12,345 nucleotides of DNA, from contig DRHE01000075.1 of assembly GCA_011049745.1 (NCBI GenBank), forward strand, positions 1-12,345, given 5' to 3'. Shown here one piece after another: positions 1 through 12,345 of this stretch (positions are counted from its first letter, which is position 1; the number at the start of each line of letters is the position of its first letter). A program made the translations under genes and the position numbers. Under the pieces are notes generated by a model. The model did not search any database, had not been told where the DNA came from, and saw only the letters and a list, made by a program, of their open reading frames with translations. This DNA comes from Spirochaetales bacterium. Lineage in GTDB: Bacteria > Spirochaetota > Spirochaetia > SZUA-6 > DRHE01.

Positions 1-193
1 CAGTTTTACCTAAAGGCCCTTCAACTTCTATGGGGCGGTCGGATTCGAGGGGGAAGAGCCATTCTCCGGAATCACCCTTGATGGAAACCCGGAGTGTACC
101 GCTCTGATTGCCGTATGCCTGGAAAGCAATAAGTCCCGTTACTGCAATTGCAATCAGAAAAGCGAGAAAATCAAGGGTTTTAACCCTTTGCAT
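1..193 (-). CDS. NusG domain II-containing membrane-anchored protein (5' part only)
   Basis: The first 64 residues are visible; the rest runs off the left edge. They show a short basic start (MQRVKTLDF), one hydrophobic segment at about residues 8-27 that would anchor or export the protein, then a beta-rich stretch with WLFPLESDRPIEVEGPLG. That pattern, a strand ending in FPL, then a strand ending in I-E-V-E-G-P, is typical of the NusG_II family found as small stand-alone proteins in spirochaetes and Firmicutes. Their function is not established, and they are not the transcription factor NusG. The ATG start is supported by GGAG 8 bases upstream (202-205). The gene begins 38 bases after the metK stop with no terminator between them, so it is probably co-transcribed with metK. 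The family call is from recalled motif resemblance. Confidence 0.72.
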   Translation of the reverse strand, partial: MQRVKTLDFLAFLIAIAVTGLIAFQAYGNQSGTLRVSIKGDSGEWLFPLESDRPIEVEGPLGKT

Positions 194-231
194 CTTGTTA
201 TCTCCATAGACCGGTAATTCAAGTTTTCCCT

Positions 232-1395
232 CTAATCAATCAGCTCTTTAACAGCCTCGACTTTATCTGTTTTTTCCCAGGGAAAACCAACACGACCGAA
301 ATGACCGTAAGCTGCTGTTTTTTGATAAATAGGCCGGCGTAAGTTAAGGCTTTCAATAATGCCTGCAGGATTCAACGGGAATACCCGTGGTATAAGTTTT
401 TCCAGTTTTTCTTCCGCGACTCTGCTGGTGCCGAAGGTGGATACAGCAATAGAGACCGGTTCAGCCACACCGATTGCATAGGCCAGCTGCACCTCGCATT
501 TTTTACATAGGCCGGCAGCCACCAGGTTCTTGGCAATATAGCGGGCCATATAAGCGGCGGAGCGGTCAACCTTTGAGGGATCCTTGCCTGAAAAAGCGCC
601 GCCTCCATGGCGGGCCATGCCGCCGTAGGTATCAACTATAATTTTACGTCCGGTTAGACCTGAATCACCATGGGGGCCGCCGATAACGAAACGGCCGGTG
701 GGGTTTATATGGTAGATAACATTGCTTTTTATCAATTCCAACGGCAGCGCCTTCTTAATTACCTCTTCGATTAATGATTCTTTCAGATGGTTATAGCTTA
801 CGTCTTCAGCGTGCTGGTGAGAAAGCACAATTGTAGTGATCTCTGCAGGTTTACCCTCTTTATAGCGCACGGTAATCTGGCATTTGCCGTCAGGCCGCAT
901 AAAGGGCAGGATGCCGCGTTTACGTACATCGGCGGCTCTCAGCATAATCCGGTTCGCATAATGTATGGGAGCGGGCATGAACTCAGGAGTTTCGCTTGAG
1001 GCAAAACCGAACATCATTCCCTGGTCGCCTGCTCCCTGTTCATGGTGCAGTCCCCGTTCCTGGTCAACACCCTGGGCAATGTCAGGGGATTGCTCATGAA
1101 TTGTGGATATTACGGAACAGGATTGATAATCTATGCCATATGAAGGGTCGTCGTAGCCTATGGATTTTAGCACACCGCGCACTACGGTCTGAAGTTCGAT
1201 ATATCCCTTAGTGGTAATCTCGCCTCCCACCAGGACCAGGCCGGTAGTGGTAAATGCCTCACAGGCTACCCGTGAATAGGGGTCCTGTGAAAGGGCACAA
1301 TCCAGTACCGCATCTGATATCTGGTCGCATATTTTATCAGGATGTCCCTCACCTACGCTTTCGGAAGTAAATACAAAGTTTTTTCGCGCAATCAA
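232..1395 (-). CDS. metK: S-adenosylmethionine synthetase (methionine adenosyltransferase)
   Basis: Cytoplasmic enzyme that joins methionine and ATP to make SAM, releasing phosphate and pyrophosphate. From the TTG start it has 387 residues, the normal family length. Motifs run in order: GEGHPDK at 15-21 (ATP/metal binding), GAGDQG at 121-126 (the family signature hexapeptide), the [18 protein letters not shown] block at about 234-251, and the glycine-rich loop GGGAFSGKD at 264-272. No key residue is missing. The TTG start at 1393-1395 is chosen because GGAGG lies 7 bases upstream and the protein then opens at the usual place. Reading farther upstream would translate the ribosome binding site and half of the terminator hairpin. 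The leader carries a promoter, a SAM-II-like riboswitch and a terminator, so SAM feedback at transcription is likely. The NusG-II gene follows after 38 bases. Confidence 0.97.
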
Positions 1396-1402
1396 TTTAT
1401 TG

Positions 1403-1407
1403 CCTCC
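1403..1407 (-). promoter_or_regulatory. Ribosome binding site of metK
   Basis: The minus strand reads GGAGG here, followed by 7 bases and then TTG. This strong Shine-Dalgarno sequence fixes the unusual TTG start of metK. It lies downstream of the terminator hairpin and is not part of the riboswitch fold, which suggests control through termination, not through hiding of the ribosome site. Confidence 0.85.
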
Positions 1408-1424
1408 AGTAATTTTATTAACAC

Positions 1425-1454
1425 AAAAAAACCTGTGCTGCAAAAGCACAGGTT
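1425..1454 (-). terminator. Intrinsic terminator in the metK leader
   Basis: On the minus strand, AACCTGTGCT (1454-1445), a 5-base loop TTTGC, then the exact complement AGCACAGGTT (1439-1430) form a perfect 10-bp stem. The T run is seven bases long (1431-1425), so five Ts follow the stem. It stands just 30 bases before the metK start codon, which leaves no room for a normal promoter between terminator and gene. metK must therefore be reached by read-through, so the terminator acts as an attenuator. It would also stop transcripts arriving from pfk. Confidence 0.93.
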
Positions 1455-1488
1455 CTGAAATCAGATTTCCTGGCTTTTTAGTGCTTTT
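1442..1488 (-). promoter_or_regulatory. Antiterminator fold competing with the metK terminator
   Basis: AAAAGCAC (minus strand, 1488-1481) is the exact complement of GTGCTTTT (1449-1442), which is half of the terminator's 5' arm plus its loop. Inside this 8-bp helix, AGG (1471-1469) can pair with CCT (1452-1450), and GAAAT/ATTTC (1469-1465/1461-1457) can form a short hairpin. G1469 can serve only one of these last two pairings at a time. Forming the 8-bp helix excludes the terminator. Its 5' strand also overlaps the 3' tail needed for the riboswitch pseudoknot, so ligand binding and antitermination should be mutually exclusive. The pairing is seen in the sequence; the switching is inferred. 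Confidence 0.65.
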
Positions 1489-1526
1489 TTTAAAGTGGTT
1501 GCAATATGCCGCAAATCAATCCACTG
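1469..1526 (-). ncRNA. SAM-II-like riboswitch aptamer upstream of metK
   Basis: The minus strand shows an H-type pseudoknot. P1 is AGTGG (1525-1521) with CCACT (1498-1494). The 22-base loop between them contains TGATTT and, at its 3' end, TATTGCAA. A downstream tail holds CTAAAAAG followed by CC. Loop GGC (1510-1508) pairs with tail GCC (1474-1472), and loop TT (1504-1503) with AA (1478-1479), beside an unpaired T1480 where SAM-II uses a conserved U to contact the ligand. The blocks UGAUUU, UAUUGCAA and CUAAAAAG, in that order and spacing around a short P1, match the SAM-II family as I recall it. One difference: the tail reads AC before the key U where SAM-II usually has GC. Location directly ahead of metK supports SAM as ligand. 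SAM-V, which shares the SAM-II core, is the main alternative. Confidence 0.8.
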
Positions 1527-1533
1527 AGCTTTA

Positions 1534-1562
1534 AATTTAGCCATTATCCGTGGAGCTGTCAA
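1534..1562 (-). promoter_or_regulatory. Promoter of the metK leader
   Basis: Minus strand: TTGACA (1562-1557, six of six matches to the -35 consensus), exactly 17 bases, then TAAATT (1539-1534, four of six matches to the -10). Transcription should start near 1527-1529, just before P1 of the riboswitch at 1525, so the leader RNA begins with the aptamer. The -35 hexamer overlaps the pfk stop codon (the TGA lies inside TTGACA). Confidence 0.75.
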
Positions 1563-2902
1563 GGATTTTTCATAGTAATAGGCTGACCCGTTGATTCCAG
1601 CACATTCAGCCAGAGGGGGTCTTCAGGAGAAAGTTGTTTATTCTCTGAGATTGCCAGCTTAATGGGTACGTGAGTAAAATTGTTAATCCAGCGACCGATA
1701 ATTATACCGGTTTTACCGGCCATTGCCGCATGTACGGCATTCTGAGCCAGCTGAATGCAGTAAATGGAATCATTGGCGTTGGCCGGCACCGAGCGTACCA
1801 GGTAACTGGGATCAATGTATTTGATATTAACGTATATGTCTGTCTGCTCTTTGAAATACTTCTTAATACCATCTTTCAGGAAGATGCCGATATCGCCCAG
1901 CCTTTGGTTGCCGGAATCATCCTTTTGTCCCTTGCCACCGGTTACATACTGCTGGCCGGCACCCTCGGCTACAATCAGCACTGCGTGACCACGGCTGCGC
2001 AGCCGCTGCTCGAGGATTTTATAGAGACCTATGGGTCCTTCCAGGTCAAAAGGGATTTCGGGAATAAGCACATAATTGACCTCATTAAGGGCCAGGGCAG
2101 CATTGGCGGCAATAAATCCGGACATCCTGCCCATTACCTTGACAATACCGATACCGTTAGGGGCGCCTACCGCTTCGACATGAGCGCATCTGATTGCATT
2201 AGCCGCTATGGAGAAGGCGGTTTCCAGGCCGAAGGTCTTTTGGACATAGGAAATATCGTTGTCAATAGTTTTGGGAATACCAACAATAGATATATTCAAA
2301 CCACGGCGGCTGATTTCTTCGTAGATGGCTTGAGCACCATGCAAGGTGCCGTCACCGCCGATAGTAAATAGAAGGGAAATCTTCATTCGCTCCAGGCAAT
2401 CCACAATTTCACCGATATCCTGGGCTCCCCTGGAAGAAGCCAATATGCTCCCCCCCTTTTCGTGTATATCAGCAATATTTTCCGGCTTTAAAAGCAGGGA
2501 TTCGTAGTTGAATTTAGGAATAAAACCGCGGTAACCATATTTGATGCCGTAAATTGTCTTTACACCATATCGATAGTAGAGGATCATTACTAAGGAACGA
2601 ATAACATTATTGATCCCGGGGCATAAACCGCCGCAGGTAACCACAGCCGCCCTGGATTTTGAGGGATCAAAGTATATCTTTTCCCGGGGGCCGGCTTTTT
2701 CAAAGGCGGTAAGTGGTTTGTTCTGCTCAATAACCTTCAAAAGTTGATCCCGGTCATGGCAGGTCAACACGGAAGCTGAATTTTCAACATAGTTGACTAT
2801 GTTATCACCATATACAGTAGAAAGTCCGAGGGGGGAGGGAATCGCAGCTTTGCCAAGAACAGCTATTTTCAGGTCAGCCACGGTTAAATGTTCCAAACTC
2901 AT
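1559..2902 (-). CDS. pfkA: 6-phosphofructokinase, long form, probably ATP-dependent
   Basis: Phosphorylates fructose 6-phosphate to fructose 1,6-bisphosphate in glycolysis. It has 447 residues from the ATG start, longer than the 320-residue E. coli type and typical of the group seen in spirochaetes, plants and trypanosomes. After an N-terminal extension of about 80 residues come GGLCPGINNV (91-100), GGDGT (182-186), PKTIDND (210-216, with catalytic aspartates 214 and 216), MGRMSGF (257-263) and PEIPF (281-285). The Gly in GGDGT marks ATP users; pyrophosphate enzymes carry Asp there. The Lys in PKTIDND is the pyrophosphate-type residue, but ATP-dependent members with this Gly+Lys pair are known. 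The in-frame GTG at 2914 is rejected: nothing like a ribosome site precedes it, while GGGA lies before the ATG. A strong promoter sits 37 bases upstream. The stop overlaps the metK promoter. Confidence 0.9.
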   Translation of the reverse strand: MSLEHLTVADLKIAVLGKAAIPSPLGLSTVYGDNIVNYVENSASVLTCHDRDQLLKVIEQNKPLTAFEKAGPREKIYFDPSKSRAAVVTCGGLCPGINNVIRSLVMILYYRYGVKTIYGIKYGYRGFIPKFNYESLLLKPENIADIHEKGGSILASSRGAQDIGEIVDCLERMKISLLFTIGGDGTLHGAQAIYEEISRRGLNISIVGIPKTIDNDISYVQKTFGLETAFSIAANAIRCAHVEAVGAPNGIGIVKVMGRMSGFIAANAALALNEVNYVLIPEIPFDLEGPIGLYKILEQRLRSRGHAVLIVAEGAGQQYVTGGKGQKDDSGNQRLGDIGIFLKDGIKKYFKEQTDIYVNIKYIDPSYLVRSVPANANDSIYCIQLAQNAVHAAMAGKTGIIIGRWINNFTHVPIKLAISENKQLSPEDPLWLNVLESTGQPITMKNP

Positions 2903-2907
2903 ACTGG

Positions 2908-2936
2908 TTCCCACTTTGTGTTGATTTAGTTATAAT
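2908..2936 (+). promoter_or_regulatory. Possible rightward promoter for the small gene at 3003
   Basis: TTCCCA (2908-2913, four of six), 17 bases, TATAAT (2931-2936, six of six). It would start transcription near 2943 and drive the small gene at 3003. It overlaps the leftward pfk leader, so the two promoters would face away from each other over shared bases. AT-rich DNA makes a chance TATAAT likely. Confidence 0.35.
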
Positions 2937-2938
2937 TA

Positions 2939-2967
2939 CTTATAATTGAGGGTAGATGGATTGTCAA
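2939..2967 (-). promoter_or_regulatory. Promoter of pfk
   Basis: Minus strand: TTGACA (2967-2962, six of six), 17 bases, TATAAG (2944-2939, five of six). Transcription should begin near 2932, giving a leader of about 30 bases before the pfk ATG at 2902. It is among the best sigma-70-type promoters in the window. Confidence 0.8.
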
Positions 2968-3002
2968 CATTAAGAAAGCTGGCTGTTCAGCAAGGGCGGG
3001 CT

Positions 3003-3272
3003 ATGATCCGCGTCCGGTACAAAAAATCCCGGGAGCTTACCACAGTAGGCGTCTGTCCGGGATGCTGGAATATTCGTGAGCGGCGTATGGCTCTCTTGCG
3101 AAGGCTCGATAAGATGGAGCTGGAAGTGGTTTTCAAGGATGATTATCTGGATGGGGTTTACCGTTCCGGTAAAGTCCATGCCCCTGCCTGTCCCTATAGA
3201 AAAATATCTCCGGATCCCTGGGAAAGATTCAAAGCCGCTATGGGGAAGAATAGATCCCGCAGGGCTCGTTAA
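3003..3272 (+). CDS. Small hypothetical protein with a possible Cys/His zinc site
   Basis: I do not recognise the family. The 89-residue product is strongly basic, with a CPGC knuckle at 18-21 and a HAPAC segment at 59-63. Together these could form one C-C-H-C zinc site around a helical stretch (NIRERRMALLRRLDKMELE, about 23-41). The tail is rich in Arg and Lys, which would suit nucleic-acid binding, but that is inference. Amino-acid make-up looks coding, and the opposite strand offers nothing better. ATG at 3003 is preceded by AAGG with 7 bases of spacing; a TTG at 2961 after GAGGG would add 14 residues. The gene is divergent from pfk and ends 17 bases before the convergent PilZ gene. No downstream terminator is visible. 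Confidence 0.6.
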   Translation: MIRVRYKKSRELTTVGVCPGCWNIRERRMALLRRLDKMELEVVFKDDYLDGVYRSGKVHAPACPYRKISPDPWERFKAAMGKNRSRRAR

Positions 3273-3289
3273 GCAGAAGGAACTGCATA

Positions 3290-4021
3290 TTAAGATACCG
3301 CTTTTTTCAGCGATCTTTCGGAGTGTTTCTGGATAAAATTGAAGAGCTTGTGGTGGCCCCCTGTGGCAAAGGATTTGAATCGCAATCCCAATTCATTTTT
3401 GCTGCGGGTAACCCGGCAATTCAGAGATATAATATCCCGGCCAATTCTCAGGGAACAGAGGGCAAGCTCATGTCCCCGCTTGAGGCCTTTAATCATGGCC
3501 CGGGAAGATGGAAGGAAGCTGGCGCCTTGAATGGATATTTCAGTAAGCTTGCCGGTTACAATAGCCATGGTCTGCGGATTGGTGAATAAAAGCTGCAACC
3601 TGTCCGATTCTAAAGGGATCAAACGATGGAATTTACGCTGATCCTGAATTGACCGGTAGCGTTTGAAAAGCTCAGTCAGACGGCGCATCTCCTTTTTATC
3701 GGTCAGATCATTTTTAATTATTCCGTTGACCCCCAGGTAGCTGGCTTTAGCAGCTTCTTCGAATGGAAAATCTTCACCGCATAAAATAATAAAGATACTC
3801 TCTTCTTTGCTCATTTCTTCGCGCAGCAGTTTCAACAGGAGTTTCCAATGCTCGGGAAAATCTGCGGCGTTAACAATGATCATTTCAGGTTGTAGCTCTT
3901 CAAAGCGCTGAATAGCTTCAGAAGGATCGGTTATTTGCTCTATTTCAAAACCAATTGGGGCAAGATGCTCTTCCAGTAGATCTTTTAATTGTTTATCTTG
4001 TGCAATTGTCAGGACCTTCAT
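3290..4021 (-). CDS. Receiver-like and PilZ two-domain protein
   Basis: A 243-residue protein with two parts. Residues 1-120 have the layout of a response-regulator receiver: strand MKVLTIA, strand MIIVN ending at position 51, strand IFIIL at 76-80, and Lys103 in GIIKN. However, the phospho-acceptor position holds Asn51, and the usual N-terminal acidic pair is reduced to Asp9, so phosphorylation is unlikely. Residues about 125-235 resemble PilZ, the c-di-GMP-binding fold: RKFHR (129-133) fits the RxxxR motif, and EISIQG (161-166) fits (D/N)xSxxG with Glu in the first place. The likely role is a c-di-GMP effector in motility or envelope control. Its ATG directly follows the TAA of the upstream gene, so the pair is almost certainly one transcript with coupled translation. 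Confidence 0.72.
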   Translation of the reverse strand: MKVLTIAQDKQLKDLLEEHLAPIGFEIEQITDPSEAIQRFEELQPEMIIVNAADFPEHWKLLLKLLREEMSKEESIFIILCGEDFPFEEAAKASYLGVNGIIKNDLTDKKEMRRLTELFKRYRSIQDQRKFHRLIPLESDRLQLLFTNPQTMAIVTGKLTEISIQGASFLPSSRAMIKGLKRGHELALCSLRIGRDIISLNCRVTRSKNELGLRFKSFATGGHHKLFNFIQKHSERSLKKAVS

Positions 4022-4975
4022 TTATTCTGTTCCGAGATTGATTATATCATATCCGGTGATCAGCCAGAAGCGGTCTTTTCGCGTAAGATAATAGGTATAC
4101 TGCTTTACCTCTGTAAAATCGGGAAATTTATACTTTGTCTTGACAATTACCGTGGCCTCATAGAGTGTGTAGCTGGTTTTTAAAATCTCAAAACTACTGG
4201 GTACCAGGAGGATATCACGGTCTACAACCTCTTTTTGCAGTTCTTTCCTGAACTGTGACAGGACCCGGCGCTGTTCCTCTTCTGACTGCCGTTGGTACCG
4301 GCTTTCGCGCTTTGGATCTCTCCGGTAGAGGCTTTCCAGGTCCATATATAGAAAAAACTTTTCCCATTGGCCCTTCTGGCGGGCTCTGATAGTATAGTCA
4401 ACCACATCATCAGGCGCCATTTTTTCCCGCTCCAGCATTCTACCGGTTTCTTGCTCAATGAGGACTCTCTCCTCCGGTGTATCAACCGGAGGCCTGATAT
4501 TAAGGGAGAGTTTATTTGATTTTAACAAGGGGCTTTTCTCTGCGGTAAAAAGTTCGGGGTAGAAGATACACTGAACACTGTAAAGACCCGGCTGTTTGAA
4601 CTCAATAAAATCAGTTAATTTAATTACAATGCCGTATTTTTCGCCGGGCTCCAGGGTAATTTCCCGGTAGTAAAGCGGTTGATTCGAGTTTTTTGCTATG
4701 GTATATTCAGCTGCAGGACCCAGAGAGATATTAGTAGGGGTGATTACATTAAAATTATAGTTAGAAACCCGGTTGTTGGCGATTTTAAAACGGTAGCTTT
4801 GCGGTGAATTATTTATTATTGTGGCTTCAAATTGGATCGGATAATCTGAATCACCTAGATAGTAGATTGTTTTTTCGAAAAAACGAAGAGAAAAGATGAT
4901 TCCCTGTGGGTTTGTTGCAAAAAGAATGCTGCAGACTAGTAGTAATAATAATTGGATTAAAATCGATTTTTTCAA
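4022..4975 (-). CDS. Exported protein with Ig-like N-domain and NTF2-like C-domain, function unknown
   Basis: 317 residues. Residues 1-20 form a signal peptide (two Lys, then a Leu-rich core ending ILFA). Residues about 25-160 are beta-rich, with patterns such as FEATIINNS, ITLEPGEKYGIVIKL and PGLYSVQCIFYP that recall BsuPI-type intracellular proteinase inhibitor folds or other Ig-like domains. About 160-240 is charged and helical. About 250-317 ends in strands (YEATVIVKTKYKF, YTYYLTRKDRFWLITGYDI) as in NTF2-like domains. These assignments are by eye. Cys15 lies in LLVC, a poor lipobox, so lipid attachment is uncertain. The TTG start is supported by GGAG 8 bases upstream. The stop codon touches the start of the PilZ gene, suggesting a joint envelope role. 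It is divergent from mfd with 42 bases between starts. Confidence 0.68.
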   Translation of the reverse strand: MKKSILIQLLLLLVCSILFATNPQGIIFSLRFFEKTIYYLGDSDYPIQFEATIINNSPQSYRFKIANNRVSNYNFNVITPTNISLGPAAEYTIAKNSNQPLYYREITLEPGEKYGIVIKLTDFIEFKQPGLYSVQCIFYPELFTAEKSPLLKSNKLSLNIRPPVDTPEERVLIEQETGRMLEREKMAPDDVVDYTIRARQKGQWEKFFLYMDLESLYRRDPKRESRYQRQSEEEQRRVLSQFRKELQKEVVDRDILLVPSSFEILKTSYTLYEATVIVKTKYKFPDFTEVKQYTYYLTRKDRFWLITGYDIINLGTE

Positions 4976-4983
4976 AATAGTTA

Positions 4984-4987
4984 CTCC
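4984..4987 (-). promoter_or_regulatory. Ribosome binding site deciding a TTG start
   Basis: Minus-strand GGAG, then 8 bases, then TTG at 4975. It supports TTG as the initiation codon of the exported protein; the signal peptide begins there as MKKSIL. Confidence 0.65.
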
Positions 4988-4997
4988 ATTCCGCCAA

Positions 4998-5003
4998 TAT
5001 AAT
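4998..5003 (+). promoter_or_regulatory. Possible -10 element of mfd
   Basis: A perfect TATAAT lies 14 bases before the mfd ATG. No good -35 hexamer is found 16-18 bases upstream. If used, transcription would start near 5010 and leave only about 8 bases of leader without a clear Shine-Dalgarno sequence. Confidence 0.3.
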
Positions 5004-5017
5004 AGTCGGTAAATCTA

Positions 5018-8000
5018 ATGATATCCTTATTAATTAATCAGATCAGCAGTCAATTTAATAAATATGAACCTTTTCAGAGATTAAGAGAGCAACTGAAGAG
5101 AGAACGCTTTCCCGTTGATCTTGAAGGACCGCAGGGCGGATTTCTTTCTATAGTACTGGCAAATATCATGCAGGAAACAGGCTCCTGCTCTTTAATTGTG
5201 GTGCCGAGCGAGCAGGAAGCCGAAAACCTGGTGCAGGACCTCATCACTCTTCTGCCTGACATCAGGAGCGCCCTCTTCCCCTGGTGGGGATTGCTGCCCT
5301 ATGGCGACGGCCGCCCTCTGCCCTCTATCTACGGTGAACGCGCTTATCTTTTAAGTTGTCTGCTTGCCGGTGAGCAAATGGTGGTCGTTGCGCCGCTGCG
5401 CTCCCTGTTAAGTCCGCTTCCCCCTCCGAAACATTTAAAAGAGCAGTTTTTGCTCTTGAAAAGGGGCGATTCTTTAGATTTAACACTTCTCTCCACCAAA
5501 CTGCAGACCCTGGGCTACCTGCGGGTGCCGCGGGTCAGCTTGAAGGGAGAATATGCCCTGCGCGGGGAGGTTGTTGATATATTCTGCTACGGCCGGGAAG
5601 AACCCAGCCGCCTGGTACTGGATTTTGATATTATCGCTGAGATAAAGAGTTTCAATGTTGTAAATCAGGGTTCCACTGTTAAACTGGAAGAGCTGAAAAT
5701 ATCTCCCCTGCGGGAAGTGATCCCCTCAACCCAATTGATAAGTACACTGAAAAAAAGGCTTGCCAGCCTTAATATAGCGGCTGAAGCAGCGGCAGGTTTT
5801 AGTGAAAGGTTTTTACTGGATGCGGATATGAAGGGAGCAGAGCTATATTTACCCCTCTGTTTTGAAAAAAACAGCTCGCTTTTAGATTACCTGCCTACTG
5901 GATCAAATTTGATCATTTCTGATTCGGAACAGATCGAGAATAACTGCGCCTCCATTCATAAAGAATATGTTCAGCTCTACAGGAATGCTCTGAGCAAAGG
6001 TGGGGCTGTTCCCCCTCCCAAAGCGATAATGATGGATTTCACAAAATTGGCCGCTGGATTTCAGCGGAAAATCTTGCTCCATACACTTAAAGGGGGGACA
6101 GCGGCAAGAGAGCGGATCATAATTCCCTGCGATCTGCCGCGTTCTTTTTTCGGCAATCTTACCTATTTTCGGGAAGAATTGGAAAATCTGCTTGATTTGG
6201 GCTATCGAATTTATATCTATGCGGTCTATGAGCACCAGGCGGAACGTATCCGGGCTCTACTGAAGGGCCTGAAGGTGGAGGTCTTCCCCTTAAGTATATC
6301 CAGCGGCTTTACCCTGCCGCAATTTAAGATAATGGTGATCCAGGAAAATGAGATCTTCGGCCGCAAGCGCAGAATACCCCGTTCTATTGGCAGGGTAAAG
6401 AGCGAGGCAATCGATACCTTTGTTGAGTTGAATCCCGGGGATTATGTTGTACACCTTAACTACGGGATCGGGATTTTTAATGGTATAGAGCGGCTGAAAG
6501 CAGCGGGGAATGAACGAGACTACATCCATCTGCAGTATGCAGATGATGAGACCATATTTATACCTATCGAACAGGTCAATCTTATCCAGCGCTATATAGG
6601 GCAGGAGGGCAGAGGGCTGCGCCTGGACAAACTCGGGGGCAAAGGATGGGAAAGCAGGAAAAAAAGAGTTAAAAAATCGGTGGAAGATCTGGCTCAAAAC
6701 CTGGTAAAGCTTCATTCCCGCCGCCTGACTGCCAGCGGTTTTGCCTTCCCTGCGGACAGCGACTGGCAGGCGGAATTTGAGGCATCCTTCCCCTATCAGG
6801 AAACGAATGATCAACTGCGCTGTATTGAAGATGTAAAGCGGGATATGGAAACACCCCTGCCCATGGACCGGCTGATCTGCGGCGATGTGGGATATGGCAA
6901 AACCGAGATTGCGCTGCGCGCCGCGTTTAAAGCGGTAATGGGCGGAAAGCAGGTTGCCATCCTGGCTCCCACAACCATTCTGGTGGAACAGCACTTTGAA
7001 CTTTTTCAGGACCGCTTTAAAAGATTTCCCGTCAAAGTTGAAATGCTCTCCCGTTTTCGAAAGCCGAAAGCACAGAAAAAAGTGATCGCAGAGCTGGAAG
7101 TGGGGGCGGTGGATATAATAATTGGAACTCACCGTTTGATCCAGAGGGATGTTCATTTTAAGAACCTGGGGCTGTTAGTGGTGGATGAAGAGCAGCGTTT
7201 TGGTGTTAAGCACAAGGTAAGGCTTAAGGAATTGAAAACCTCGGTGGATTGTCTTACCCTGACGGCAACACCCATTCCCCGTACCCTGCATATGTCGCTT
7301 ATGAAGATAAGGGATATGTCTACCCTGAACACGCCCCCACAGAACCGTTTGCCCGTAGAGACCTTTATTCAGGAATGGGATGAAGAAATTATTGTCGGCG
7401 CCATCAGGAACGAGATCAGCCGCGGCGGACAGGTCTACTATCTCCATAACCGGGTTCAATCCATCCCCCGTGTTTATGGACTGTTAACCGCTCTACTGCC
7501 CGAGGTAGTTATCGGCATTGCCCATGGGCAGATGAAGGAGGATGAACTCGAAGAAGTAATGCACCGCTTTATTAGCGGTGATATTTCGGTTCTGCTCTCC
7601 ACAACTATAATCGAAAATGGATTGGATATTCCCAATGTAAATAGCATTATCATCGACAGGGCCGATAGTATGGGAATATCACAGCTCTACCAACTTCGCG
7701 GCAGGGTGGGCAGAGCGGATCGACCGGCTTATGCCTATCTTTTTTATCCGAAGAATAGAGCAATTTCTGAGCTGGCTATGAAGAGACTTAAGATAATTTC
7801 CGACTTCACGGAGCTTGGTTCCGGTTTTAAGATCGCTTTGAAAGATCTGGAGATCAGGGGTGCGGGAAATATTTTGGGGCGGGAACAGCATGGGGACATA
7901 ATGACTGTAGGATACGACCTTTACTTAAGACTTCTGGATGATGCCATAGCAGAAATAAACCAGGAGGCGAGTGAGGAAGCGCCCGAAGTTTACCTGGAAT

Positions 8001-8422
8001 TGGAGTACTCTGGTTATATTCCTGACACTTATATTGCAGAACCCATGGAAAAGATGGAGGTTTATAAGAAAATATCGGCGATTTCCAGCAGGGATGAGCT
8101 GGATAGGACCCATAGTGAATTGGAGGACCGCTTCGGGCCCCTCCCTGATGAGGTGTCCGGCATTTTTTCTATTGCTGAGATCAGGATCATCTGTAAAAAA
8201 TTATTTATTTCCTCTTTGCAGGAAAAAGAGGGACTGGCAATAGTGGAGTTTTCCCGGCCCTCCCACCTTTCAGTGGAAAAGGTGCTGCGTTTAATCAAGG
8301 AAAGTGGGGGTAAAGTAACACTTGATGCAGAAAAGCCGAATTATCTCTATATAAAGAGCGGCAAGATTGATCTTAAAGATAAGGCTGAGTTTTTAAGTGA
8401 ACGCTTATCCATGTTGCTTTAA
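5018..8422 (+). CDS. mfd: Transcription-repair coupling factor
   Basis: Mfd binds RNA polymerase stalled at a DNA lesion, pushes it off with its ATP-driven translocase, and recruits UvrA. The product has 1134 residues, close to the usual length. The N-terminal third is the UvrB-like region ([16 protein letters not shown], about 88-103). From about residue 472 ([16 protein letters not shown]) to 560 is the RNA-polymerase-interacting domain. The translocase follows: Walker A GDVGYGKT at 622-629, DEEQ at 723-726, TATPIP at 749-754 and QLRGRVGR at 892-899. The C-terminal TRCF domain starts near 993 and shows YIPDTYI and a KMEVYKKI helix. All key motifs are intact. The ATG has a weak ribosome site at best. 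The stop overlaps that of convergent ahcY by four bases. Confidence 0.97.
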
Positions 8423-9843
8423 TAGCGGTAATTGTCAGCTTTATATGGTCCTTCAATATCCAATCCCAGGTATTCAGCCTGCTCTTTGGTTAATCTGGTA
8501 AGTTTCACGCCCAGGTGGTGCAGGTGCAGCCGCGCCACCTCTTCGTCGAGTTTTTTTGGCAGCACATAGACCTTGTTTTGCAGTTCTTCACCGCTTAGTT
8601 TCAATTGAGCCAGGCATTGGTTGGTAAAACTGTTGCTCATTACGAAGCTGGGATGACCGGTAGCGCAGCCCAGATTGACCAGGCGACCTTCAGCAAGGAG
8701 GATAATGGAACGGCCGGATTTTAGGGTCCAGCGATCCACCTGTGGTTTGACGGTTTCCTTTTTACATTCAGGGCTGTTCTCCAGGTAGCTTACCTGGATC
8801 TCATGGTCAAAATGGCCGATATTGCAGACAATAGCGCTCTCCTTCATCTTTTCCATGTGTTCGCCGCGAATTACATCAGAGCAGCCGGTTGCGGTAACAA
8901 AGATATCGCCCACTGTCACAACTTCTTCCAGGGTCAAGACCTGGTAACCCTCCATAGATGCCTGCAGCGCGCAGATGGGATCGATCTCTGTAATTATCAC
9001 CCGTGCTCCCAGGGCGCGCAGGGACTGAGCGCTGCCCTTGCCCACATCGCCATAGCCGCAGACAACCGCAATTTTTCCCGCTATCATGATATCGGTAGCA
9101 CGTTTAAGGCCGTCTGACAGAGATTCACGGCAGCCGTAGAGGTTGTCGAATTTTGACTTGGTTACCGAATCATTTATATTAATCGCCGGAAATAAGAGCT
9201 CGCCGCTGCGCTCCATCTGGTAGAGGCGGTGAACGCCTGTAGTAGTTTCTTCAGAGACGCCCTTGATACGTTCGGCCACCTTTGTCCAGTGCGTATTATC
9301 TTTACTTAAGCCTTGTTCCAGGCGTTTCATAATTACCTCAAATTCCTTATTGTCAAAACTACCCTGCAGCAGGGAGGGGTCCTTTTCCACCTTCACCCCT
9401 TGATGCACAAAGAGAGTCGCGTCTCCTCCGTCATCTACAATCAGGTCAGGTCCTGAGCCGTCGGGCCAGGTAAGAGCCTGCTCGGTGCACCACCAGTACT
9501 CATCCAGGCTTTCAGCCTTCCAGGCAAAAACCGATGCCTTGCCTGCCGCTGCGATTGCCGCTGCGGCCTGGTCCTGGGTGGAGAAGATGTTACATGAAGC
9601 CCAACGCACATCCGCGCCCATTTCAAACAGGGTTTCTATAAGTACCGCTGTCTGGATAGTCATATGCAGGCTGCCGGTAACCTTAAGCCCCTTTAAGGGT
9701 TTATCAACGCCATATTTCCGGCGAATGGCCATTAAGCCGGGCATCTCTTTTTCAGCAAGGTTGATTTCTTTTCTGCCCCAGCCGGCGAGGTCAGGATTGG
9801 CAATTTTATTTTTCAGATTAAGATCAAGTTCGATATATGACAT
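8419..9843 (-). CDS. ahcY: S-adenosylhomocysteinase
   Basis: Uses NAD to split S-adenosylhomocysteine into adenosine and homocysteine, removing the inhibitor made by SAM-dependent methylation. It has 474 residues, the long form with an insertion of about 40 residues (about 150-195). Seen in order: GSLHMTIQT (58-66), the DDGGDATL block (138-144), [11 protein letters not shown] (197-207), [17 protein letters not shown] (218-234) with the active-site Asn, Lys and Asp, the NAD-binding loop GYGDVGKG (263-270) and the C-terminal KADNYRY, whose Lys-x-x-x-Tyr-Arg-Tyr end closes over NAD in known structures. ATG at 9843 follows AGGAG with 6 bases of spacing; the TTG codon just upstream is not needed. 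It is 15 bases downstream of a small gene and probably shares its transcript. No riboswitch is visible ahead of it. Confidence 0.97.
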
Positions 9844-9858
9844 CAATTTCTCCTTTTT

Positions 9859-10125
9859 CTATTTAGGCAGCCCTCCGTTTTTATCAAGCTTCGTTACATG
9901 ACTTTTGAGTGATCTTATCAGCGGCATTAATGGGTAATCTACACTATCCGTAAATTCAATATTAACCAGGGGTGGGCCCATGGATTGTGATTCCAGGGTA
10001 AACTTAATTCTAATTTCTTTAGATTTTTTATCAGCCATTTTAAAAAGGGCAAGGCCGGTATATTCCCTGAAGTAGAGTACCGGTGATTCTATATAAGCAA
10101 CATCATTTATGTCCAGAAGTTTCAT
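9859..10125 (-). CDS. Small hypothetical protein upstream of ahcY
   Basis: I do not recognise this 88-residue protein. It begins MKLLDINDVAYIESPVLYF and looks like an alternating beta-strand fold, with strands at about 14-30, 39-49 and 54-60 and a helical tail (LMPLIRSLKSHVTKLDKN). It has no signal peptide, no membrane segment and no cysteine, so it should be a small soluble cytoplasmic protein. ATG at 10125 is chosen; AGAGG precedes it, but closer than ideal. An in-frame TTG at 10161 would add 12 residues but has no ribosome site and lies in an inverted repeat. The stop is 15 bases before ahcY, so the two are probably one transcript, which hints at a link to methyl-cycle metabolism without proving it. 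Confidence 0.62.
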   Translation of the reverse strand: MKLLDINDVAYIESPVLYFREYTGLALFKMADKKSKEIRIKFTLESQSMGPPLVNIEFTDSVDYPLMPLIRSLKSHVTKLDKNGGLPK

Positions 10126-10142
10126 TGCCTCTAGCTTAGAAG

Positions 10143-10148
10143 ATAATA
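10143..10148 (-). promoter_or_regulatory. Possible -10 element ahead of the small gene and ahcY
   Basis: The minus strand reads TATTAT (five of six), 17 bases before the ATG at 10125. An 18-base spacer separates it from TGTAAA, a poor -35. This is a weak candidate, listed because no better promoter lies between gltA and the small gene. Confidence 0.25.
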
Positions 10149-10150
10149 GA

Positions 10151-10171
10151 GTAAAAATCAATCGATTTTAC
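10151..10171. repeat. AT-rich inverted repeat between gltA and the ahcY unit
   Basis: The left arm gtaaaaatc and right arm gattttac pair over 8 bp with one bulged A and a 4-base centre (aatc). It sits upstream of the small gene's start, where it could be an operator or, in RNA, part of the gltA 3' end. It is not followed by a convincing T run, so a terminator role is weak. Confidence 0.45.
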
Positions 10172-10172
10172 A

Positions 10173-10233
10173 GTGAAATCACGGCGCTCGCTTCGCTCGC
10201 TTCACGGTTGCTGAAAATCACTCACGTTCGCTT
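10173..10233. repeat. GC-rich repetitive block across the end of gltA
   Basis: cgctcgctt occurs twice in perfect tandem (10185-10202), with a degenerate third copy gttcgctt at 10226-10233. The block is framed by repeated tcacgg (10179-10184 and 10202-10207) and aatcac (10177-10182 and 10217-10222); gtgaa (10173-10177) and ttcac (10201-10205) can pair around the tandem. It covers the last codons of gltA. Its look resembles short dispersed intergenic elements; copy number elsewhere cannot be seen from one window. Confidence 0.55.
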
Positions 10234-11561
10234 AAGGGCAGGTAGGGCCGCCTGGTGCTTACACTTCGATAAGCGGGACGGATTATCCTGCCGCCTGAAA
10301 TTATTTCTTCGATCCGGTGAGCGGACCAGCCGGCAATACGGGCTATGGCGAATATTGGTGTGTAAAGCTCCTGGGGAATATTCAGCATTTTATATACAAA
10401 GCCGGAGTAGAAATCCACATTGGCGCTGATGACTTTATCTGAATTTTTTACCCGTTTAAAGGCTGCAGGGGCCAGTTTTTCAATAATCTTGTAGAGCTGG
10501 AATTCCTCTGAATATGATTTTTCTTTGGCCATTTCCGCTATTTTCTGCTTAAGAAGCACGGCGCGGGGGTCGGATAGAGTATAAACCGCGTGACCTATAC
10601 CATAGATAAGGCCGGAGCGGTCACCGGCCTGGCGGTTAATTAGTTTTGCCAGGTAGCCATCTATCTCTTCTTCATCCTGCCAGTCCTTAACATTTGCTTT
10701 TATATCTTCCATCATGGCCATTACTCTGATATTAGCGCCGCCGTGCTTGGGTCCTTTAAGAGAACCCACAGCAGCTGCTATTGCGGAATAGGTATCCGTA
10801 TCGGAAGAGGATACCACATGATCGGTAAAGGTTGAGTTGTTGCCGCCGCCATGTTCTGCGTGGAGCACCAGAGAGAGATCCAGAGTCTCTGCTTCCAGCC
10901 TGGAGAATTTGCTGTCCGGCCTGATCAGATACAGGATATTCTCAGCAGTATTCAGGTTTTTTTGGGGATTATGAATAAAGAGACTCTTATTATTGAAATA
11001 ATGTGATTTTGCCTGGTAGCCGTAAGCGGCCATTGTGGGGAAACGGGCGATCAACTCGATACACTGTCTTAATAAATTCTTAATAGAGATATCATCCGGA
11101 TTCCGGTCGTAGGAGTATGAAGCCAGGACGCTGCGGGCCAGTTTGTTCATTATATCATTGCTGGGGGCTTTGAGGATCATATTTTCGGTAAAGCCATTCG
11201 GCAGCTCCCGATGCTCTGCCAGCATCGATTTAAAATCCTCCAGCTGCTGCTCAACAGGCAGATCGCCGAATAGCAGCAGGTAACAGACCTCTTCAAAGCC
11301 TGAGCGTTTTTCTTTTTGAAAACCGGCCACAAGATCTTCAATTTTAATGCCGCGGTAGGTAAGGCGTCCCTGATCCGGGATTTTTTCGCCTTCATCAAAG
11401 ATAAAGCCATGTACATCGCCTATTTCAGTTAAGCCTACCAACACACCGGAGCCGTCAGCATTGCGCAGGCCCCTCTTTACATTATGTTTCTGATAAAGTT
11501 CCAGGGCAATCCTGTTATGCTTTTCCGCCAGGCTGCTGAGATTATTAATAAAACTACTCAT
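10218..11561 (-). CDS. gltA: Citrate synthase
   Basis: Condenses acetyl-CoA with oxaloacetate to citrate, feeding 2-oxoglutarate and glutamate synthesis. The 447-residue product contains the full fold. The catalytic triad is visible: His237 in HAEHGGGNNSTFT, His273 in GPKHGGAN and Asp383 in NVDFYSG. GHAVYTLSDPR (323-333) and RIIRPAYRS (425-433) supply further substrate-binding residues. The N-terminal part (DVHGFIFDEGEK, LTYRGIKIEDL) resembles the longer citrate synthases of spirochaetes and clostridia. 2-Methylcitrate synthase belongs to the same superfamily, but no prp genes lie near. AGGAG is placed 6 bases before the ATG. A promoter and a dyad lie upstream. The last codons run into a repetitive block. 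No other TCA-cycle gene is in the window. Confidence 0.93.
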   Translation of the reverse strand: MSSFINNLSSLAEKHNRIALELYQKHNVKRGLRNADGSGVLVGLTEIGDVHGFIFDEGEKIPDQGRLTYRGIKIEDLVAGFQKEKRSGFEEVCYLLLFGDLPVEQQLEDFKSMLAEHRELPNGFTENMILKAPSNDIMNKLARSVLASYSYDRNPDDISIKNLLRQCIELIARFPTMAAYGYQAKSHYFNNKSLFIHNPQKNLNTAENILYLIRPDSKFSRLEAETLDLSLVLHAEHGGGNNSTFTDHVVSSSDTDTYSAIAAAVGSLKGPKHGGANIRVMAMMEDIKANVKDWQDEEEIDGYLAKLINRQAGDRSGLIYGIGHAVYTLSDPRAVLLKQKIAEMAKEKSYSEEFQLYKIIEKLAPAAFKRVKNSDKVISANVDFYSGFVYKMLNIPQELYTPIFAIARIAGWSAHRIEEIISGGRIIRPAYRSVSTRRPYLPLSERE

Positions 11562-11583
11562 ACTCTGCTCCTGAAGTCATATT

Positions 11584-11599
11584 TTGTATTTTTATACAA
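11584..11599. promoter_or_regulatory. Perfect 16-bp dyad, candidate operator of gltA
   Basis: ttgtat, four t, atacaa: a perfect 6+4+6 inverted repeat. It would cover about +2 to +18 of the gltA transcript predicted from the promoter at 11608-11636 and ends 22 bases before the ATG. This is a good place for a repressor. The regulator is unknown. Without a T run after the RNA hairpin and with only AT-rich pairs, a terminator is unlikely. Confidence 0.5.
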
Positions 11600-11607
11600 T
11601 GTGGTCG

Positions 11608-11636
11608 AGCATATATTTAATTGACGCTTTTAGCAA
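11608..11636 (-). promoter_or_regulatory. Promoter of gltA
   Basis: Minus strand: TTGCTA (11636-11631, four of six), 17 bases, TATGCT (11613-11608, four of six). Start near 11601, leader about 40 bases. Matches are moderate but spacing is exact, and no stronger pair lies in the 130-base gap upstream of gltA. Confidence 0.5.
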
Positions 11637-11691
11637 TAGGCCAACCGCCGCTTATAGCATGGGAATAATTAGGGTTGCGGGACAGTCTCAA

Positions 11692-12108
11692 TTAAGGCTG
11701 ATCTGTTTTATCCCCCTGATTGTCGGATTTGTTGTCAGAGGACTCGCATGACTCGCATAAATTTGAATCGTGATACAAGAAACGCTGCCACCCCAGTCTT
11801 TGCCCGCATTTCAGACAATTTATCCGGAAGGGGAAGAATCTGGAGCGTTTTGACAGGACCAGGAGGGCCGCCGCAAGGATAACAGGCAGCAGCAGACTTT
11901 CCGAAAAATTGAAACGCCTGATCAGTACAGCGGTGGTCATTAAAACCAGGACCACAATTGCCAGGTAAAGGGTTGCCAGCCGCTTTTTTGCCCCGCTTTT
12001 TAAGTGTTTACGCTGGAGCAGGTTAAAGACCAGGAGGGCGATGAGCAGGTAATAGAGACCCTTCTGAAGAAAATAAGCTATTGAGGCAGTAGAAGAAATC
12101 GGTTCCAT
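11692..12108 (-). CDS. Three-helix membrane protein with a C-terminal zinc ribbon
   Basis: I do not recognise a named family. From ATG at 12108 it has 138 residues. Three hydrophobic helices lie at about 11-31, 43-63 and 71-86. They are followed by a cytosolic-looking tail with two CxxC knuckles: CLKC at 98-101 and CESC at 118-121. Sixteen residues separate the pairs, as in small zinc ribbons. The last 17 residues are Ser, Asp, Asn and Gln rich and probably disordered. A TTG at 12117 would add three residues; neither start has a clear Shine-Dalgarno sequence. It lies 47 bases after the permease stop and 130 bases ahead of gltA, which has its own promoter, so it may be a single-gene unit. A membrane-linked regulatory or assembly role is possible but only a guess. 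Confidence 0.65.
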   Translation of the reverse strand: MEPISSTASIAYFLQKGLYYLLIALLVFNLLQRKHLKSGAKKRLATLYLAIVVLVLMTTAVLIRRFNFSESLLLPVILAAALLVLSKRSRFFPFRINCLKCGQRLGWQRFLYHDSNLCESCESSDNKSDNQGDKTDQP

Positions 12109-12120
12109 AGGCGTCAACAG

Positions 12121-12148
12121 CTTATCAGAGCCGGCAGCAGCAGGTCAA
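12121..12148 (-). promoter_or_regulatory. Possible promoter of the zinc-ribbon membrane protein gene
   Basis: Minus strand: TTGACC (12148-12143, five of six), 16 bases, GATAAG (12126-12121, four of six). Transcription would start only a few bases before the ATG at 12108, giving an almost leaderless message. This fits the absence of a ribosome site but is weak evidence. Confidence 0.3.
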
Positions 12149-12155
12149 CCAGTAG

Positions 12156-12345
12156 TTACTCTTTAACACCCCCTGAGGTAAGTCCCCCGACCAGGTTCTT
12201 CTGAACCAGCATGAACATCGCTACTACGGGAACAGCCGTACATACGGAAGCAGCCATAATCCGGTCCCAGATAGCATTCTTGGATACGAATAGGGACTTC
12301 AAGCCGAGGGGCAGGGTATAGAGTTCCTTATACATAACTTTCGGG
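12156..12345 (-). CDS. Carbohydrate ABC transporter permease, MalG/UgpE type (3' part only)
   Basis: The last 62 complete residues are visible; the rest is off the right edge. They read as the end of an inner-membrane subunit of a binding-protein-dependent sugar importer: LYTLPLGLKSLF, then a final membrane helix (IMAASVCTAVPVVAMFMLVQ, about 30-49 of the visible part), then the family's typical ending NLVGGLTSGGVKE. In sugar-permease pairs this ending (G-L-T-x-G-x-V-K) marks the MalG-like second permease. The EAA loop that contacts the ATPase would lie upstream of the visible part. The sugar cannot be told. It is probably the last gene of its operon, because the next gene has no clear coupling to it. 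Confidence 0.85.
   Translation of the reverse strand, partial: PKVMYKELYTLPLGLKSLFVSKNAIWDRIMAASVCTAVPVVAMFMLVQKNLVGGLTSGGVKE

Follow-up and report, generated by a model that had tools for sequence, protein, structure and literature searches.

Does the leader of metK in a Spirochaetales bacterium carry a riboswitch of the SAM-II class outside the usual hosts of that class and, if so, by what means would it act on the gene behind it? The leader lies in what we call the window, the whole stretch of 12,345 nucleotides that was analysed (contig DRHE01000075.1, positions 1 to 12,345). Here pfk and metK follow one another on the minus strand with a gap of 163 bases between them, the leader features extending from the last bases of pfk onward.

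SAM-II blocks in the metK leader

The genes, the translation signals and the parts of the aptamer are as follows, in order of transcription.

1559..2914, minus strand: pfk, phosphofructokinase (PF00365), the conserved upstream neighbour
1534..1562, minus strand: promoter-like site from a consensus scan, TTGACA (1562-1557), 17 nt, TAAATT (1539-1534)
1458..1534, minus strand: SAM-II aptamer, given as the extent of the RF00521 match; the RF01726 match spans 1468-1530
1521..1525, minus strand: P1 5' strand AGUGG, read letter by letter
1513..1517, minus strand: GAUUU, the L1 triplex strand (G8, U10-U12 in PDB 2QWY numbering), read from the sequence, with the numbering of PMC3764141 placed by hand
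1508..1510, minus strand: P2a 5' strand GGC, read letter by letter
1501..1504, minus strand: P2b 5' strand UUGC (U20 U21 G22 C23), by reading, numbered as in PMC3764141
1494..1498, minus strand: P1 3' strand CCACU, read letter by letter
1482, minus strand: A at core position 42, in place of the G that would pair with C23 within the G8-G42-C23 triple
1472..1481, minus strand: P2 3' strand CUAAAAAGCC (C43 U44 A45-A47 and the GCC of P2a), by reading
1403..1407, minus strand: metK Shine-Dalgarno sequence GGAGG, by reading
1395-1393, minus strand: likely metK start TTG, by reading; the mechanical open reading frame begins at 1449, within the terminator described below
232..1395, minus strand: metK, S-adenosylmethionine synthetase (Pfam PF00438, PF02772, PF02773)

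The original prediction had named P1 AGTGG/CCACT, GATTT, a tail and a GGC/GCC pseudoknot in SAM-II order, and these letters are all present on the minus strand at 1525-1472, with CTAAAAA at 1481-1475 and GCC at 1474-1472 in a letter-by-letter check. AGUGG/CCACU (P1) and GGC/GCC (P2), paired by sequence only, give an H-type pseudoknot with its strands in the correct order. The accessible text of PMC3764141 lists U10-U12, U20, U21, G22, C23, G42, C43, U44 and A45-A47 as completely conserved in SAM-II. Numbered as in 2QWY, U10-U12, U20, U21, G22, C23, C43, U44 and A45-A47 are present 12 of 12 in the window, so that 12 of the 13 pocket letters are kept, the exception being G42. As expected of the class, the element is sited upstream of a methionine/SAM gene, here metK. 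The sigma-70-like promoter scan found one site with 10 of 12 matches where shuffles lead one to expect 0.6, a result that is weak on its own; the position of this site agrees with the placement of SAM-II promoters in PMC1273637, as far as its accessible text goes, and it would start the transcript a few bases ahead of P1.

Covariance models match the element significantly at scores under their gathering levels. In a cmscan of 1200-1900 (701 bases, 4227 families), the part of the window covered by the search below gathering level, RF00521 scored 31.2 bits (E 4.2e-5) and RF01726 33.5 bits (E 1.8e-4), both lower than the respective gathering scores of 36 and 44, and the next-best family after the SAM-II models stood at E 0.021. 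The related class SAM-V had no row among the 16 matches listed to E 10 for 1200-1900, a list from which one lower-scoring clan overlap is omitted. At gathering level, the default Rfam scan of the whole window returned no match; the window also holds ahcY at 8419-9846, on the same strand as metK and ∼7 kb away. The window element is the best RF00521 place in its whole genome (E 3.4e-5). When applied to 14 control genomes, RF00521 found a match in all 14 at E 10, in three at E 0.1 and in none at E 0.002, while RF01726 gave one match at E 0.002, in Bacteroides ihuae, above the cut-off.

Scores under the gathering level, together with an unremarkable fold of the whole leader, hardly more stable than shuffled sequence (z -1.1; 29 of 200 shuffles fold as low), would suit a chance resemblance or a decayed element in a leader that holds a terminator only. 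We consider this most improbable, given the RF00521 E value of 4.2e-5, the lack of any RF00521 match at E ≤ 0.002 in the 14 controls and the presence of the core in the corresponding position of four relatives with MetK proteins 72-95% identical to that of the window. Assignment to the SAM-II type, as originally proposed, is supported by two Rfam models that are significant though below gathering level and by syntenic relatives, one of which (G008) exceeds the cut-off. Genuine SAM-II members can thus fall below Rfam thresholds. Judged by these comparisons, the metK leader very probably carries a SAM-II-class riboswitch, a divergent variant of the known class.

With the long-loop form, RF01726, the element shares UUGCAACC that continues into the P1 3' strand, a spacing of three letters from P1 to GAUUU, and the CUAAA tail; G008, from the same order as the window, exceeds the cut-off of this model. 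It differs in its score (33.5 bits vs 44), in A for G at position 42 and in host group, given in the accessible text of PMC2864571 as Bacteroidetes and marine samples. With RF00521, the metA motif, it shares the conserved blocks, a promoter-like site just upstream and a terminator downstream, as in many members according to the available part of PMC1273637, but scores 31.2 bits vs 36 and has two extra letters before UGAUUU. Its target, metK, is unlike those of SAM_alpha in Proteobacteria, for which the accessible text of PMC4239095 names metY, metA, metX, metC, hom and metW.

Twelve other weak RF00521 or RF01726 places in the window's genome and its relatives, none of them at metK or the z and y genes, were inspected (L002, L003, L095, L096, L098, L099, L100 and L106-L110), and ten of these were dismissed by eye, the blocks being absent or the place intragenic. 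L096, in G016, is a plausible SAM-II element of 22.7 bits before a 188-aa gene of unknown kind, with P1 AAGCC/GGCUU and P2a AUAUC/GAUAU by eye. G016 also has a SAM-I riboswitch elsewhere (L154); PMC2258182, in its accessible text, reports that no species was found with both classes. SAM-I (RF00162) occurs in two of the 26 genomes of the order, the second being G018 (L153, 92.1 bits), and is absent from the window's own genome.

Syntenic relatives and core position 42

RF01726 at E ≤ 0.01 finds six of the 26 genomes of the order. In five of these (the window's genome G000, and G001, G003, G008 and G013) the element lies between pfk and metK; G008 exceeds the cut-off of 44 with 51.5 bits, and the other matches in the order stay below it. 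A pfk protein 67-93% identical is directly upstream of the element in all four relatives that carry it. No metK was found in the sixth genome, G017, in which the place (L106, RF01726 31 bits) is followed on its strand by no gene seen of more than 100 aa. The window's family has seven genomes: three have the element, in G002, G004 and G006 metK closely follows pfk and the element is absent, and no metK match was obtained in G005. Overall, 61 genomes were searched for metK and 53 gave a match; of the 31 metK leaders inspected from these (30 loci and G003), five had the element.

Pairing is retained while letters vary. Across the five syntenic elements the outermost P1 pair varies among A-U, U-A and C-G, and in the rest of the phylum P1, and in many cases P2a, consists of other letters that still pair, for example GACG/CGUC and CUCCC/GGGAG. 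By a script that takes the best helix near the blocks, P1 has at least 5 bp, with varied letters, in 18 of 19 aligned rows; in G121, the one missed, AAGUGGA/UCCACUU was seen by eye. P2a has at least 3 bp in 14 of the 19, counting G371, which the script misread, and the doubtful G013, and 2 bp in the other five, including G008. The covariation expected of a genuine element is found in P1, as retained pairing rather than by a tree-aware test; for P2a the counts are mixed. Three letters separate P1 from GAUUU in all five elements from the window's order, against 0 or 1 in 13 of 14 other aligned rows; SAM-II in the phylum comes in two makes.

The AC noted originally in place of the usual GC is real and common to all three element-bearing members of the window's family (G000, G001 and G003); the remaining 16 of the 19 aligned elements have G at position 42. 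The G8-G42-C23 triple is present in PDB 2QWY (PMC3764141, accessible text), and A42 should weaken one pocket pair. Does the RNA then sense a ligand other than SAM, such as S-adenosylhomocysteine, or SAM only at high level? Such a change of ligand or affinity draws on the family-wide A42 set against G in the other rows, on the description of G42 as completely conserved and part of the triple (PMC3764141), and on ahcY, the product of which removes S-adenosylhomocysteine, lying ∼7 kb off on the same contig. The same source, however, places the direct SAM contacts in two letters of the U11-A45-U21 triple and not in G42, and the letters of this triple are retained in the window. A like triple in SAM-V, the pocket of which is superposable on that of SAM-II, reads the sulfonium charge (PMC6061858, accessible text), and the downstream gene is metK. 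We therefore regard an altered ligand or affinity as improbable. Somewhat more credible, while still doubtful, is a SAM-II subclass of the spirochaete lineage whose otherwise invariant C23-G42 pair in the binding-pocket triple has given way to C and A. Such a subclass would respond to SAM over a higher or different range, and the strand common to pseudoknot and antiterminator would couple it to metK. Pattern scans of 392 phylum genomes were uninformative on this position, the A42 and G42 patterns matching 291 and 315 of 392 and the reversed control pattern also matching widely (fewer for G42), and no count was drawn from them.

Predicted antiterminator and terminator

The sequence downstream of P2 contains the parts of a putative transcriptional switch.

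1469..1478, minus strand: antiterminator 5' arm AAAAGCCAGG, overlapping the pseudoknot strand (fold -15.3 kcal/mol)
1454..1465, minus strand: inner antiterminator hairpin UCUG-AUUU-CAGA (CUUA/UAAG instead in G003)
1442..1452, minus strand: antiterminator 3' arm CCUG-U-GCUUUU, overlapping the terminator 5' arm
1425..1455, minus strand: intrinsic terminator GAACCUGUGCU (1455-1445) / AGCACAGGUUU (1439-1429) with a U7 tract at 1431-1425 (-16.3 kcal/mol)

The switch helix spans 1478-1442 on the minus strand. Its AAAAGCC strand is common to aptamer P2 and antiterminator, and CCUGUGC, the other antiterminator arm, is also part of the terminator. Computed energy and sequence indicate that antiterminator and terminator are mutually exclusive and tied to the aptamer. 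The promoter-like site, the terminator and the antiterminator are the parts missing from the first, sequence-only reading.

Both hairpins occur in all three element-bearing members of the family. In isolation, the antiterminator folds at -15.3, -15.4 and -10.8 kcal/mol and the terminator at -16.3, -16.3 and -13.0 kcal/mol in G000, G001 and G003, respectively. The terminator pattern scan found one terminator against 0.2 in shuffles. Among 2000 dinucleotide shuffles each, the switch helix is matched by a fold as low in 3 (G000), 2 (G001), 54 (G003, in which the antiterminator is weaker), 4 (G008) and 2 (G013), and is thus rarer than shuffles in all five syntenic elements. Paired changes in G003 preserve both hairpins, UCUG/CAGA vs CUUA/UAAG and U-A vs C-G. 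The P2 strand of G008 and G013 pairs in the same layout with CCUG-A-GUUUUUUAG or its like, and no terminator is seen after the switch helix in these two. The metK leaders there (L122 in G008, L121 in G013) have a window-like aptamer and switch-helix layout followed by a hairpin that, by eye, could cover the metK Shine-Dalgarno sequence.

When folds were computed for the growing transcript of G000 and G001, the antiterminator formed first (∼-23 kcal/mol at 86 nt) and the terminator was best at 98 nt (-25.6); the order was the same but later in G003, with the terminator best at 104 nt. Beyond 98-104 nt the best folds alternate: structures of the antiterminator type (G000, G001) or others lead at 110-116 nt, and the terminator leads again at 122 nt. 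In G000 the fold at 136 nt contains the antiterminator. The two structures are close in computed energy, as given by programs that model neither SAM nor the pseudoknot.

We consider it very probable that the SAM-II riboswitch in the metK leader acts as a transcriptional OFF switch. Transcription would begin just ahead of P1. When SAM is scarce, AAAAGCCAGG would pair with CCUG-U-GCUUUU to form the antiterminator, which would consume the 5' arm of the terminator so that transcription continues into metK. Plentiful SAM would instead bind in the pseudoknot and hold CUAAAAAGCC in P2 and the base triples, so that the antiterminator could not form and the terminator at 1455-1425 would stop transcription before metK. 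The blocks, the model scores, the conservation in syntenic relatives and the mutually exclusive pairings are observed; the start of transcription, SAM binding, this direction of control and termination in the cell we infer. OFF with SAM is the logic expected for metK because metK makes SAM and feedback would result.

Terminators are common after SAM-II in Proteobacteria, as stated in the accessible text of PMC1273637 and PMC2258182, and a terminator-based mode is therefore not new. The Sinorhizobium meliloti metZ leader likewise has a SAM-II aptamer followed by a terminator, predicted there to form on SAM binding (PMC9373788, accessible text), although gene and phylum differ and the likeness is taken from the published description. 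The same source has a SAM-II leader whose terminator is not predicted to be under riboswitch control, which raises the alternative that the window's aptamer acts mainly on translation or mRNA stability while the terminator acts regardless of SAM, as proposed for Sinorhizobium metA. The metK elements of family f14, from the class of the window, point the same way: P2a is CUCCC/GGGAG (found by script in three of them and by eye in the fourth). This helix would mask an SD-like sequence, GGGGAG or GGGAG, and makes translational SAM-II likely elsewhere in this class. In the window itself the metK Shine-Dalgarno sequence (1407-1403) lies ∼65 nt downstream of P2 and outside it, whereas the antiterminator joins P2 directly to the terminator, in all three family members with the element. 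Control mainly at translation or stability is accordingly an unlikely account of this leader, and the transcriptional OFF switch is preferred. SAM-V, whose ligand-binding core superposes on that of SAM-II (PMC6061858, accessible text), is described as translational with the Shine-Dalgarno sequence beside the pseudoknot, unlike the window.

SAM-II elements in the phylum

RF00521 at E ≤ 0.002 finds 11 of 392 phylum genomes, four of them over the cut-off, and RF01726 finds two, neither over it. Extension of SAM-II to this phylum, as read from these matches, is real but sparse; with four genomes over the RF00521 cut-off, SAM-II in the phylum may already stand in Rfam species lists. The 13 RF00521 places comprise five before metK, one before ahcY and seven that precede either a small gene without a known family or no clear gene. 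The five metK places, all under the cut-off, are the window and G371, G401, G428 and G327 of family f14 (leaders L148, L150, L151 and L152, at 25.9-29.4 bits). The genomes above the cut-off (G307, G371, G401 and G033) have the places that exceed it in the group with small genes or no clear gene. The ahcY place (L145 in G421, 30 bits, under the cut-off) precedes an S-adenosylhomocysteine hydrolase gene recognised by resemblance to that of the window.

SAM-II also precedes three unrelated families of small proteins: L143, L144 and L090 (∼130 aa), L089, L094 and L149 (∼195-205 aa), and L142 (145 aa, Cys-rich), with L142, L143, L144, L090 and L089 over the Rfam cut-off. One member of each family gave no Pfam or PHROGs match and no meaningful NCBIfam match, and the L094 protein, used as query, found three proteins among 90 candidates, one of them itself. 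In most of these elements the Shine-Dalgarno sequence is within or beside the pseudoknot strand.

Host group was examined with a 41-row MetK tree, which comprised the window, 20 relatives and 20 of 80 named loci, including three titled Spirochaetes or Treponema. Those three fall within a starred group that also contains six genomes from the class of the window. This group and the window's own starred group of 15 are split from the 17 other named rows (Bacillota, Pseudomonadota and Nitrospinota) at 93% SH-aLRT, a split that is not starred. The tree thus groups the window's class with named Spirochaetota, in keeping with the impression, formed originally from sequence, of a spirochaete genome; a spirochaete host is supported, not proven. 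Published hosts of SAM-II are Alphaproteobacteria, a few other Proteobacteria and the Bacteroides group (PMC1273637; see also PMC2258182), and those of the long-loop form Bacteroidetes and marine samples (PMC2864571), each as given in the accessible text. Set against these, the placement in Spirochaetota agrees with the suggestion that the element lies outside its usual hosts, and open-access literature covering Spirochaetes and Treponema yielded no report of SAM-II in spirochaetes.

A small, structurally solved riboswitch class is thus extended to a phylum for which no report was found, at a site before the SAM synthetase gene itself. Natural variants are now supplied of a pocket letter described as invariant, and the five syntenic copies in one order, of which two have G42 and a different platform, form a set in which joint evolution of pocket and platform may be followed.
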